From Rhizoclosmatium globosum (lineage: Eukaryota > Chytridiomycota > Chytridiomycetes > Chytridiales > Chytriomycetaceae): 64,000 nucleotides of DNA. The notes under the pieces were generated by a model. That model saw only the letters and a list, made by a program, of their open reading frames with translations. It was not told the origin of the DNA and ran no database searches. The stretch is taken from NCBI GenBank assembly GCA_002104985.1, contig MCGO01000007.1, positions 558,001 to 622,000 on the forward strand, written 5' to 3'. The position numbers and the translations under genes were made by a program. Below, in pieces: positions 3,823 through 30,752 of the stretch (the first letter of the stretch is position 1; every line of letters starts with the position of its first letter).

Positions 3823-4903
3823 ATGAGTTTGGCACTACTTTCCGTCCTTTCGTTGCTTGTATCGAGCGTCGTGTCCCATGGTAACACTACTTCCTTTCCT
3901 GCAACTGTTTCTGGTTTGGCGCAAACATTCGAAGGACACTTGGCCGTTCCATTTGGATGCGGAATCAACTTGGATGATATGGTTTGTTTAAGGCGTCTGC
4001 ACATTCGCAAATCTAACTCTACCTAGCCCGAAGACTCTCCTTCTCAAACCTTGCCGCCCTCTGGCTCCGAGCTGCCTTCCACGATGTTGGAAAGTACAAT
4101 CCTTCAACAAGTGCGCCTGTTGCTGGTCTCCTTCCTACGTTCCTGAATGAGAAGGAAAACGATGGCATCGGGCTTTCTATTGCCACACACTTTGCGTCAA
4201 AGTACAAATTCAACTACAGCAGTGCCGATTTCATTGCCATTGCCGGACAAGTCACAGTCACGCACTGTGGTGGACCTTCTTTCAACTTCTCAGTTGGCCG
4301 AGTGGACGCTCCGTCTGGAACAAAGTTCTCAAGTCTACCAAACCTACTTCCAGATGACGAATTGGATTCGTATCAAGTCATCAAGCAAAAACTGTACCGT
4401 CTTGGCTTAAATAATGAAGATATCGTGGCTCTCGTTTCAGGAAGTCACACTATGGGTGGTGTCCATGCTGCTATTTCTCCAAAGGCAACCAACAAGACTT
4501 TCGAAGCTTTTGATACAACCCCGGAATATTTGACAATGACATTTTCAAGCAGTCACTCAAAGGAAACTGCCGCTTGAAGGTTGACTGCAATATTGCCAAA
4601 GATCCAGAGCTTCGACCAATTGTAGAGCTTTTTGCGCAAGATCAGGCTGCATTTTTCAAGCAGTATGCTTTATCATACCCCAAGTTAACTAGCGTTGGCC
4701 AGAATAATAATGGATGGGCAAGCTTTCACTTGGATTTGACTGTTCATGAAAATCTTGTGAAGGAAGGTGGTGTGAACCCACCCGAATTCAACGTATCTCC
4801 TCTTGCAACACCAAGCAGTGTCACGACCAGCTCTAAATCAGCTGCTGTTGGCATCTTTGGAACACTAGCTGCTTCTATTTGGGTTCTCGCCTTTTCACTT
4901 TGA
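3823..4903 (+). CDS. Secreted, membrane-tethered heme peroxidase (class II-like), one frameshift
   Basis: A secreted heme peroxidase of the fungal class II/plant peroxidase superfamily. The ATG at 3823 starts a signal peptide (MSLALLSVLSLLVSSVVSHG). A 41-nt intron (3986-4026) keeps frame into the distal heme motif LWLRAAFHDVGKY, which has the catalytic Arg and His. Later come a THCGGPSFNFSVGRVD block and the proximal His motif LVSGSHTMGGVH. After that, one base is missing in a C run (4519-4522); restoring the frame continues into an IFDNDIFKQSLKG-type block. The protein ends in a Ser/Thr-rich stretch and a hydrophobic tail that suggests a GPI anchor. With one base added the model is 346 residues. 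All heme-site residues I can see are present, so a working enzyme is likely if the frameshift is an assembly error. It probably oxidises extracellular substrates; the substrate is unknown. Confidence 0.8.
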
Positions 4904-26365: not shown

Positions 26366-27300
26366 TCAAAGCTTAAGCTCAGATTGCAGATCTTTTTGCA
26401 ATATAACTAACTCTGATATTGCTGTAGACACCATAATGGGCAAAGAAGATTGCGTTGGTACAAACGGGTTGGCTTCAGAGAACCAGTCATGATTTGATAT
26501 ATTAATTAAAGTTGTACAGCAGTCTGGATTTGGATGCAACAGACCCTGAACAAATTTCAAGGTATTTGCTGATGATGATGGTAGAAGATTCCAGTCTGCC
26601 AAACTAGATTTCATCAAATTGAGCTGCTCTGACTCTGTCAATGCCAAGTGAAATGGAGACTTTGCTGTCAAAGCAAAAAACACAATAGCACCAATGCTGG
26701 CGATATTTGATCTTTGGTCATGGAGCTTTCCTGCAAGCACCTCATATGAGCTGTATAAAGGTGTTCTGTCCTTAGAAGAACAGTCACGTCCCTCCCAACT
26801 AGATCCAAAATCCAAAAGTGACCATTGGGAAGATGCATGATATTTTGGGGCTTAATATCATGATGGAAGATATTGTTTGCATTCAAGACCTAAGTAGTTT
26901 GTGAGTAAATGCTTGTAAAATGGAGGTCTGAGATACCTGAAGGATTTTAATCAGCTCTTCCATCCACTGCTTTGCAACAGACAATCTCACTGGACCATTG
27001 ACTAATGAAGTCATATAACGGCACTCCTGCCACCAGTTCCATGATAAGGTAGAGTTGGCCATCTCCCATTATCACATCCTCATATTGAGCCACGCCCTTG
27101 GCCCCTTTCAATATTTTGCAAATTTGCGCATTCACACTTGAAAGATTGCAGGACCATTGGGGCCCTCGATGATGGTATTTTGGCAGTAAAAGTCATCCCA
27201 GTGGATTTAGACTTCACCAAGTAAACAGCACCACCTCTTCCTTCACCCAACTTATTCTTTACAGCAGATTATTCGTGACCAATGTACAGGTCACAATTGC
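26366..27300 (-). pseudogene. Protein kinase pseudogene
   Basis: Minus strand, in order: a glycine loop LGEGRGGAVYLVKS, the lysine block TFTAKI, the hinge LYLIMELV, a catalytic loop HHDIKPQNI (HHD in place of HRD), LLDFGSSW (DFG) and a YSSYEVLAGK block in place of APE. These are the subdomains of a eukaryotic protein kinase. An intron of about 47 nt fits between LIKILQ and VLNANNIF. An in-frame TAA (27269-27271) precedes the loop and at least three frame changes follow (near 27140-27160, 26983 and 26815). The kinase group is not clear. Confidence 0.65.
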
Positions 27301-27344: not shown

Positions 27345-27745
27345 CAGTTATCCCTCATTTGTGTGACTTGATTCACAGGGGTCAACTTTTACCTTACCCC
27401 CTCAAAATTTCCATGTAAATTACAATAACTTCAGTTCATTTATCAACAATCTTTGACACTAATTGTAAGAGTTGATCTTGGCTGTTCCCATTCTGCAAAA
27501 ACCCAATTCAAATATAAGGTTGCCAATGGTATTGTGTGGCTCTCAAGTAAATTCCAAAGAGAGAGCAGTCAATCATGACCATGGCAACTCCACCACAACT
27601 CAATTCTTGTCCATGAATATTGATTGAATTGGGCTGATTCTGCGGGCCCTGGGTCCCACATATCCAAAAGACTGCAGAAGGCAATTTCCCAATGTGTAGC
27701 CACCCATAAGAACCATGCATTGCAATCCAAGGAGAATTCAAGTCA
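27345..27745 (-). pseudogene. Duplicate fragment of the DEAH helicase 3' end
   Basis: Parallels 33120-33500, the terminal exon and 3' flank of the helicase gene. The block ATTTATCAACAATCTTTGA occurs in both, as do nearby TGTAAGAGT, CCCAATTCAAATAT and CTCCACCACAACT. The copy has diverged and its frame is broken. It lies in the same orientation about 5.8 kb from its likely source. Confidence 0.7.
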
Positions 27746-27998: not shown

Positions 27999-30097
27999 TC
28001 AACCCAAATACAATGGTGGTTCATCCCCTTGTCTTGCACTGTTCCCACTTTCTTCAAACTCTTTACAACGTCTTTTCAACGCCCCAATTCCTTCCTCAAA
28101 TAAAGCACGTTCACCAAAACGCGTAATCCCCAGCACTGAACACAAATCACTTACACGTGTAACCAACAGAACACGGCCATTGATCTTTTCTTCAAACACA
28201 ATACGCGTTATGTCCAAAGCACTGACTCCAATTTCCACGAGCCACAGAGCTACTTGCGTGGAAGTCCAAGAAATTGGATCAGCAGGGAAAACAGAGGAAC
28301 CACCTTGCTCAAGAAGCTGTTTGATATTACTTTGAATTTCGTCGTAAGTGCTTGCTCGATTTTGAGGATTCTTTTCAGCAGTGATTGAGGCGGCGATGGT
28401 ATTGTTCATTGCTTGGAATAAAGATTCCCCCTTCTCCTGAAACTGATCTTGTGAACGCTGTCTTGGTTGCTCAGCCAAAGCAGATGGATGAAGTGTGTTT
28501 GTTCCAGCAGAGCTCAGAGTGACAGGCCGAGTAGTAGCAGGTGTTTGATTTTGTGATTTATAGCTCGTATGAACAGAGGATGGTAAAGGAGATGTAGAAA
28601 CTTTGAAGTGTGTTGTATCTCTAAGAGATAATTCATAAGGAATTGATGTAGGTACTTTATCAAACAACAAACCTCAAAACCTCAATCTCATTGTCAGTAA
28701 TGAGCGTTTCTGCAGAGCCTCGTACAACATTTTCCGTGACAGGTTTACTGTTTTGAAATTGAGGCTGTTCTCGCAGCGCTTGCTGTGGCGCTGTCATACG
28801 ACGTCTCCAAACCCATATAGAAAGCACAAACAACCCAACTCCGAGAACCAAAGCTCCAACAGATATGGCCACAACAGCTGCCTGAGATAAACTCTTAACG
28901 CCAGTTCCATCCACAATCCCAAATCCATCTGTAGCAGCGGAATCGCCAAAGACTCCTGAAATCTCATGCTGAAAAAACGAGGATGCAAGGGCAGAACCTC
29001 CGGTCAAGACATTTGCAGGTGGATATGAGGATACGGCAAAGATAAACTTTCCAGTGATGGACTTCCCCGACCGTCCAGAATCTGGGCTGAAGTTGTCCAC
29101 ATGCACAGCTGAGAAGGAGAGCTTGGCCCATTTGGGGACAGGTATATCTGTTACCAAGTCTATTTGCTGCCAGACTGGATTGTAGTTGATGTTGATTCCA
29201 TGGCTATACGTAGTAATAAAGGCAGTGGAAGTTTTGTTTTGATTCGGGTACCCTATAATGACATCTCCATCCATCATTGATTCGCCTAATCCAAATGCAG
29301 CCCATCCAGTTTTGAGGGAGTGAATGGTGAAGATTGTGTTGCCTGACCCGTCAGGTTTTAATATAGCACAAATGATTGGATTTCCCACGAGTGGATAGCA
29401 CATTGTAGTCGAATTCAGGACAGATTGCAAAGTTGTGTCTTGTGTGGATAGGAGTGATGGAGTAAGAGAAGTATCAACATATCCACCCAAACCAGACGAT
29501 ACATTGTATTCAAGAAGACGCGAGTACGCGTCCACGAAGTCCGTGATGAATGTGGTTTGGTCTGTGGCATACTGGTTCACATAATACATGTAGCTTGCGT
29601 CGTTGATTAAGCTCAAATCGACTGGAAGCATCATTCGTCCTCTTGTGTCAGCCCATTGCCACTTCTTTGAGTCATTATAGATCACAGACACGTTTGAGTA
29701 GTATGCAGGATTGCTGTGTGCAAGTGCGAGACGAACGAAGAATTCATTCGTGAGGGAGAGAGGGGTGGTGGTCCAAGGCCCAGCATATCCAGAAACTTGG
29801 ACATGGCAATTACCCAAATTATGGGCACCCATCAGCACCACTGCATCGCGGTCGTTTGTGAAACCAAGGCGATTAAACCACACGCGTAGGTCCTGGGCAT
29901 TCCACTGCGCATCCGTGTGCTCTGTTGCAGGCGAATACTTGACATCCGAGGCACTGACGACATCTGCGCGACCAGGTCTCCACGGCACCGCCAAATTCGC
30001 GGATTGAATTGCAGCGCCAACTGCCACGGCGCCAGCAAACGAAAGCGTGTCTGCGTTCGAAATGGATCCAACTAAAAGTAGAACATTGAACTTGCTG

Positions 30098-30145
<48 letters not shown>

Positions 30146-30364
30146 TCACCCACCTAATCCACTTTTAAGGCCTGTCACTAAATCAAAGTCCGCCGCGTTC
30201 TCCTCGCCAAGAAGTGACTGACCGTGCGGTGTTCCCGTCGCGTCTTTAAAGGCCAATCGAATCAGCTTCGGTCCAAGGCCGGCGCGTACGAGGCCTGCGA
30301 CATTCGAACGAAGCCGCGCCCAGTCTGAGTCGCTGAGTGTTGGCGCTGCGAATGGTGTCCACAT
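27999..30364 (-). CDS. CcP-like peroxidase domain fused to DOMON, one TM helix and SAM
   Basis: A 743-residue model from ATG 30362-30364 with introns 30072-30153 and 28621-28672; the exon sum is an exact multiple of three. Residues about 1-260 are a class I (cytochrome c peroxidase-like) fold: LIRLAFKDA holds the distal Arg36, but the distal Trp is Phe39 and the catalytic His is Lys40. The proximal site is intact: His154 (LMGAHNLG), Trp210 (WQWAD..GRMMLP) and Asp222. Residues about 295-435 look like a DOMON domain (TGWAAFGLG, DGDVIIGY). A hydrophobic helix (468-492) is followed by RRR, so the C-terminus should be cytosolic. A Gln/Ser-rich linker leads to a SAM domain (about 653-723). It probably binds heme yet lacks normal peroxide cleavage, suggesting a sensor or receptor. 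No signal peptide is visible from this start; an upstream exon is possible. Confidence 0.8.
30099..30144. repeat. (CA)n microsatellite inside an intron
   Basis: About 23 CA units within the first intron (30072-30153) of the peroxidase-DOMON-SAM gene, close to the splice donor. Confidence 0.95.
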
Positions 30365-30752
30365 TCTGCCAAGTTTTTGCCTGCTTGGACATTGGCCAAT
30401 AAAATAATGGAATGATGTTTGTGATGTTCTGACTGTCCCGCCCAAAAGCAAAGCACTCAATCTTTATACTTTTATGGCAAACACTGCTCATTCAGTCAAA
30501 TACTGTGGCTTTTGTTACGGGGATTCCGACGCCTCCTGACTGTGTCATTAGCATAAAAACGGTTTTGCTGCTACTATTTTGTAAATCAACAATTTATTAA
30601 CTAAATTTATGTGGGAAAATCTGCTGAAGTTGGCTTTGAAAGCTTTTTTACAAGTCTGGGGATACCTTATAGTTAAACAAAGGTTGAAAATATAAAATCG
30701 CACTTTATAATGTACATAGTAGCACCAGCAATTTCCTTCCTTAATATGTCGC
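30365..30752. other. Intergenic region with a TATA-like element
   Basis: Upstream of the peroxidase-SAM start a TATAAAG lies at about 30460-30467 on the minus strand. The rest separates it from the stop of the acyltransferase. No gene is seen. Confidence 0.35.

Follow-up and report, generated by a model that had tools for sequence, protein, structure and literature searches.

The question posed by this locus of Rhizoclosmatium globosum is whether a cytochrome c peroxidase (CcP)-like domain, a DOMON domain, a membrane helix and a SAM domain truly belong to one gene product and, if so, what that product might do. Within the window, by which is meant the whole 64,000 nt stretch of DNA analysed, the gene lies on the minus strand in three exons (30364–30154, 30071–28673 and 28620–27999) and encodes 743 residues, ordered as class I peroxidase, DOMON, a single transmembrane (TM) helix followed by RRR, a linker, SAM and a PPxY motif, the last being an addition to the domains listed in a preliminary description of this DNA. 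The features of the gene are as follows.

30154–30364, minus strand: exon 1; residues 1–70 and the first base of codon 71; N-terminal part of the peroxidase, with the start MWTPF
30072–30153, minus strand: intron 1; GT..AG, 82 bp, containing a GT repeat
28673–30071, minus strand: exon 2; remainder of the peroxidase, DOMON, membrane helix and start of the linker
28621–28672, minus strand: intron 2; GT..AG, 52 bp
27999–28620, minus strand: exon 3; linker, SAM, PPxY and stop
29488–30343, minus strand: class I heme peroxidase-like domain, about residues 8–265, with intron 1 inside the range
30245–30247, minus strand: Lys40, at the place of CcP distal His52 in the alignment of family rows
29821–29823, minus strand: His154, proximal heme ligand (CcP H175 place), 18/18 rows
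28918–29406, minus strand: DOMON/CDH-cytochrome-type domain, about residues 293–455
29275–29277, minus strand: Met336, candidate DOMON heme ligand, 18/18 rows
28966–28968, minus strand: His439, candidate DOMON heme ligand, 17/17 rows
28798–28899, minus strand: membrane helix 462–493 (hydropathy 2.69) and RRR 493–495 (from the sequence)
28068–28280, minus strand: SAM domain, about residues 651–721, from a profile search and a homologue model; below Pfam cut-offs
28008–28019, minus strand: C-terminal PPLY (PPxY), residues 738–741, from family conservation and control frames
30365–30578, minus strand: 5′ flank, with a TATA-like box at 30468–30463 (by eye) and out-of-frame ATGs at 30554, 30548, 30491 and 30392

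It appears somewhat probable that this gene belongs to a family of single-pass membrane proteins, so far seen in chytrids only, in which a heme-bearing pseudo-peroxidase serves as a receptor or sensor with a SAM–PPxY tail.

One gene, its copies and its relatives

Intron 2 was called by prediction, and read-through of exon 2 meets a stop soon past the 5′ splice site, both of which would suit a chimeric gene model in which separate peroxidase–DOMON–TM and SAM genes have been falsely joined at this intron. The 56.9 Mb genome assembly, searched with the window gene, nevertheless holds a paralogue on contig C372 (49 % identical, with signal peptide, peroxidase, DOMON, helix, SAM and tail), whose match to query residues 72–743 runs through a single 658-codon open frame that intron 2 does not interrupt. 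As the peroxidase-to-SAM parts share one frame here, the fusion first described from the window is real, independently of intron 2, and the deposited proteins P0004, P0006 and P0018 display the same order. A two-gene chimera, rejected on the C372 frame, is therefore extremely improbable. The deposited R. globosum protein P0005 matches the C372 frames.

A much closer copy, on contig C375, encodes a protein 98 % identical to that of the window gene; with 96–98 % DNA identity in the matched flanks as well, it is read as the other allele or haplotype. The introns differ in length between window and C375 (82 and 60 bp, and 52 and 51 bp, respectively), the reading frame being intact in both. There are 27 synonymous and 17 replacement codon differences, with no stop or frameshift in either copy, giving dN 0.010 and dS 0.054 (NG86) or dN 0.011 and dS 0.042 (YN00). 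The resulting dN/dS of ~0.19 (NG86) or 0.27 (YN00) fits a coding gene under constraint. Due to the divergence of C372, which is too high for dS in most regions, the inference of selection rests on the C375 pair.

Two decayed relics lie near these genes. One of promoter-like and exon-1 DNA (L056; C372:218116–218414), 76 % identical to window 30241–30578, sits upstream of the intact C372 gene. The other, a short peroxidase relic just downstream of the window gene (27651–27722, minus strand; tblastn E 0.002, 13/24 residues alike), has both His places of the proximal motif changed. Also downstream, fragmented kinase-like frames are apparent by eye at about 26600–27270 (minus strand).

At least 19 related proteins were found in Rhizoclosmatium, Chytriomyces, Siphonaria, Entophlyctis and Physocladia, a taxonomic range to be read as a lower bound (each search scored ~8000 candidates). 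The same order, for which a search of other chytrids had been proposed, recurs amongst these relatives: by eye, P0004, P0006, P0007, P0010, P0016 and P0018 all read signal peptide, peroxidase, DOMON, TM, SAM and PPxY, and the JEL0117 relative extends to the same C-terminus as the window protein. Other models are incomplete: the proximal-His stretch is missing from P0001, the membrane helix from P0002, the N-terminus from P0003 (UNVERIFIED_CONTAM), and the SAM end from P0005 and P0013. The record from Siphonaria carries the UNVERIFIED_CONTAM flag. In two Chytriomyces genomes, three members each seemingly lie on one contig (253,925 and 162,640 bases), which suggests local expansion of the family.

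These relatives are deposited under the names 'heme peroxidase' or 'L-ascorbate peroxidase 3'. Literature searches, with most subscription papers outside their coverage, found no paper on this architecture amongst the matches listed; the accessible part of PMC3591440 holds nothing on a peroxidase–DOMON–SAM protein, and the word DOMON is absent from the text of PMC4232752 and PMC8945051, both on hybrid B heme peroxidases. The domains are known and their order is apparently undescribed. The earlier statement that no described protein has this order therefore stands with regard to papers, but not as a claim of uniqueness, given that relatives are deposited and that the SAM tail occurs with other outer parts.

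The peroxidase domain

Recognition of a CcP-like domain was well founded. The window protein matches PF00141 above the cut-off, the fold predicted for the domain (from a homologue model) matches yeast CcP, and proximal H154, W170 and D222 are all present. Across the family alignment, the proximal His is found in 18/18 rows, the radical-site Trp (CcP W191 place) in 18/18, the Asp in 17/18 and the distal Arg in 14/17, with the His of a nearby GGxH motif in 17/17. The place of the distal His, to which the title of PDB entry 5ccp ascribes a critical role in forming compound I rapidly, is occupied by Lys in the window protein, Thr in C372, and Ala, Ser, Gly, Asn, Asp or His elsewhere. His is kept in 4/17 rows and absent from 13/17, and the window copy, with Lys40, lacks the distal His expected of an active CcP/APX-type enzyme. 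In variability, this column ranks at the 96th percentile of 233 peroxidase columns, and the family tree, with its long branches and weak backbone, indicates at least 8 residue changes at the site and at least 2 changes between the His and not-His states.

Ordinary peroxidase chemistry is consequently unlikely in most of the members compared. Since four rows retain the distal His, enzymatic function may survive in part of the family; the full R..WH set is present in P0004, and Arg together with His in P0007, P0011 and P0012. Such residues bear on a different reading, namely that the protein is a membrane-tethered enzyme, a cytochrome and a cytochrome peroxidase in one chain, in which the DOMON cytochrome feeds electrons to the peroxidase heme and peroxide is removed at the cell surface, with SAM and PPxY controlling placement or turnover only. 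The retained Trp, Asp and distal Arg would be expected of such an enzyme, as would the four members just named and DOMON candidate ligands that resemble those of electron-transfer cytochromes; loss of the distal His from most rows, and its replacement by Lys in the window copy, would not, and we regard this reading as unlikely. The earlier idea of a surface or organelle-membrane sensor that would read heme, peroxide or a sugar and signal by SAM clustering is partly supported: it is in keeping with the order of parts, the tail-side charges and the SAM tail, but the peroxidase part of the window protein is without its catalytic distal His.

The DOMON domain

The DOMON assignment held by fold but not by the curated cut-offs of Pfam, against which the DOMON and CDH-cytochrome scores fall short (17.2 vs 32.7 bits and 19.5 vs 27 bits, respectively). 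The predicted fold of the window's own domain matches the DOMON of DBH and CDH. This fold test was carried out because a profile running from DOMON to the C-terminus (A2, seven rows) gave no DOMON match against the sequences of solved structures, its best SAM match being 0.0076 and its membrane-segment matches weak. In the whole-length fold search all matches listed were CcP-type entries, such that DOMON and SAM could not appear.

Within the family, a Met (18/18) and a His (17/17) are tentatively assigned to the CDH ligand places by position and spacing. For the plant CYBDOM protein HYP1, comparison with CDH led to the proposal, in the accessible text of PMC10784544, that a Met/His pair binds the DOMON heme, whilst human DBH DOMON is described in the portion available of PMC4846438 as being without such Met/His ligands. 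Conservation of the proximal His in the peroxidase and of the Met/His pair in DOMON points to heme-binding potential in both outer modules, and the outer part probably carries two hemes. Conservation of the axial ligands suggests, moreover, that heme is a built-in cofactor and not the thing sensed.

Membrane topology and the missing signal peptide

The single helix at 462–493 is followed by RRR, placing positive charges on the tail side, and a weaker second hydrophobic stretch (1.63) lies inside SAM. A signal peptide is absent from the window copy, the C375 copy and the annotated P0001, all of which start MWTPF; one is present in C372 and in 8/17 homologue models by scan, and by eye also in P0009, P0013 and P0018. 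The signal-peptide exon suspected upstream of 30364 was scanned for and no candidate was seen: the 396 bases upstream contain no ATG frame that opens with a strongly hydrophobic segment and gave 0 matches in the signal-exon scan. Chance matches arose in 76/500 shuffles of that stretch, and a match would therefore not have proved such an exon either. Another scan returned two hydrophobic ATG frames, both within the frame of the neighbouring gene. None of the five ATGs between 30365 and 30800 is in frame with 30364. Surface placement as originally stated was thus not upheld for the window copy, whose location at the surface is suggested by its paralogue and homologues and not by its own start.

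Three other TM–SAM–PPxY genes of this genome, on C164, C362 and C135, likewise show no signal peptide by eye at the start of the outer-part frame; upstream scanning turned up a single hydrophobic ATG frame, of 19 codons, at C164, and nothing at C362 or C135. Either small signal exons have escaped notice, or insertion depends on the helix by itself. The lack of a signal peptide and the out-of-frame upstream ATGs could also mean that the window copy is a decaying, 5′-truncated duplicate that has lost its signal-bearing start and whose product is mislocalised or not made, a fate in line with the similar decayed exon-1 relic upstream of C372 and the peroxidase relic downstream of the window gene. 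The intact frames and low dN/dS of the window and C375 copies are at odds with this, as is the C-terminus shared with the JEL0117 relative. Because the three further TM–SAM genes show the same absence by eye, simple decay is weakened, and is in our view distinctly unlikely.

The SAM–PPxY tail and the genes that share it

As with DOMON, the SAM domain stood on one kind of evidence and fell short on another. Its Pfam scores are below the cut-offs (SAM_PNT 23.2 vs 24 bits, SAM_1 18.2 vs 23 and SAM_2 12.9 vs 20.5), but a profile of nine tails, the window's included, matches the solved SAM of liprin-beta-1 in the PDB at 1.3e-10 (0.0076 for a family-only profile). The SAM helices of the homologue model have block-mean pLDDT of 75–93; the whole-length model, the best of five, is of moderate confidence (mean pLDDT 56.5). 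Amongst the 17 homologues, SAM models at E 0.01 comprise SAM_PNT, SAM_Ste50p and SAM_KIDINS220 in one member each, and an NCBIfam scan of P0004 and P0018 gave below-cut-off matches only.

The window protein ends in EPPLYLG. In most relatives the motif is PPLY, PPAY or PPEY, with the first Pro in 15/17 rows, Tyr in 17/17 and LPAY in two. In the control set, a PPxY within the last 20 residues was found in 0/242 open frames of at least 100 codons from 29 other loci, and within the window the gene is alone amongst 129 open frames in possessing it.

Two tail searches of the genome listed 37 and 26 matches, amongst them haplotype copies as well as SAM proteins lacking a membrane helix, and from these 14 distinct TM–SAM genes, the window gene counted, were inspected. 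PPxY lies inside the last 20 residues in 13/14, the exception ending APPPFTE; of the 12 that are not peroxidase–DOMON genes, 11 end in PPxY. Helix and SAM share one open frame in 10/14, whilst intron 2 separates them in the window gene, and in L029, L072 and L073 the helix occupies a neighbouring frame with a putative join to SAM. The outer part is peroxidase–DOMON in 2/14 and, by eye, Cys-rich or LRR-like in most of the other 12, for six frames of which Pfam gave no outer-part match over cut-off. The C164-type receptor has matches in two Rhizoclosmatium records only. Adjoining genes L027 and L071 (C157:286300–292864) encode TM–SAM proteins whose outer parts look LRR-like by eye and which terminate in PPSY or PPPF.

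Where SAM lacks a membrane helix, it can be joined to arrestin domains: the one protein of this kind that was scanned matches Arrestin_N and Arrestin_C over the cut-offs. Arrestin-domain proteins with a C-terminal SAM occur at L030 (C24:184396–187626) and also on C103 and C364, one being Pfam-confirmed, and numerous SAM matches lie close together on these three contigs. WW domains are common in the genome (53 exon-level matches, haplotype copies counted), and PY motifs are used by Nedd4/Rsp5 and arrestin adaptors.

Proposed mode of action

In the receptor reading, the outer part would comprise a degenerate class I peroxidase and a CDH-cytochrome-type DOMON, with one predicted heme each, and the inner part a flexible linker, the SAM domain and the terminal PPxY. 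Most members would act as sensors and not as catalysts. A redox change, or a small ligand acting at the heme sites, might alter the association of the outer parts, whereupon the SAM domains could cluster or recruit SAM partners, for example the arrestin–SAM proteins of the same genome, and PPxY could recruit a protein with a WW domain, such as a ligase of the Nedd4/Rsp5 type, leading to signalling or endocytosis. The window copy may be anchored N-out by its membrane helix, may have an unseen signal exon, or may have lost surface display.

More tentatively, one may envisage a single inner tail (TM, linker, SAM and PPxY) that in this chytrid lineage serves interchangeable outer domains (peroxidase–DOMON, Cys-rich and LRR-like). 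The peroxidase branch would then be heme sensors whose distal site has diversified in the manner of a ligand-specificity site, with a readout by SAM clustering together with arrestin–SAM partners and WW-domain ubiquitin ligases. If this is true, the shared tail would define a class of signalling proteins in zoosporic fungi that is open to experiment, and the peroxidase branch would plainly illustrate how an enzyme became a sensor, its members offering natural variants of the catalytic residue. Single-pass receptors bearing adaptor tails like those of animals are, as far as is known, few in fungi.

Comparison with known proteins

Yeast CcP is a soluble mitochondrial enzyme. The window protein shares with it, and with class I (PF00141), the fold (tested on a homologue), proximal His, Trp, Asp and distal Arg, but has Lys for the distal His and adds DOMON, a membrane helix and SAM. 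With the CDH cytochrome domain and CYBDOM proteins it has in common the DOMON fold and perhaps the Met and His candidate ligands; the partner of DOMON is there a dehydrogenase or cytochrome b561, and here a peroxidase with a single-pass SAM tail. Eph receptors, which are single-pass with a cytoplasmic SAM, follow the same general plan, although the window protein has no kinase match, an unlike outer part and a terminal PPxY. DUOX similarly bears a peroxidase-like outer part on a membrane protein, but its extracellular domain is of another peroxidase superfamily and is carried by a multi-pass NADPH oxidase. As far as the accessible portions of PMC4232752 and PMC8945051 go, fungal hybrid B heme peroxidases also fuse a peroxidase to a further domain, which is of the WSC sugar-binding type and for which the window protein has no match.

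Identity with hybrid B peroxidases was rejected, there being no WSC amongst 7 Pfam families at E up to 1. Identity as the mitochondrial CcP was likewise rejected, as a CcP-type gene of this genome sits elsewhere, on contig C374. Further class I-like peroxidases with RLAWHD, GPI-type by eye, are encoded at L063, L064 and L065 (C399 and C207). The GGPHA motif of L063 and L064 resembles the GGxHAQ of the peroxidase–DOMON–SAM family, and it may be from proteins of this type that the peroxidase domain of the receptor derives. A second peroxidase gene of the window, at about 4017–4900 (plus strand), is of a different type, with an LRAAFHDV motif and, by eye, a hydrophobic, GPI-anchor-like tail; it has a near copy on C375 (L005).
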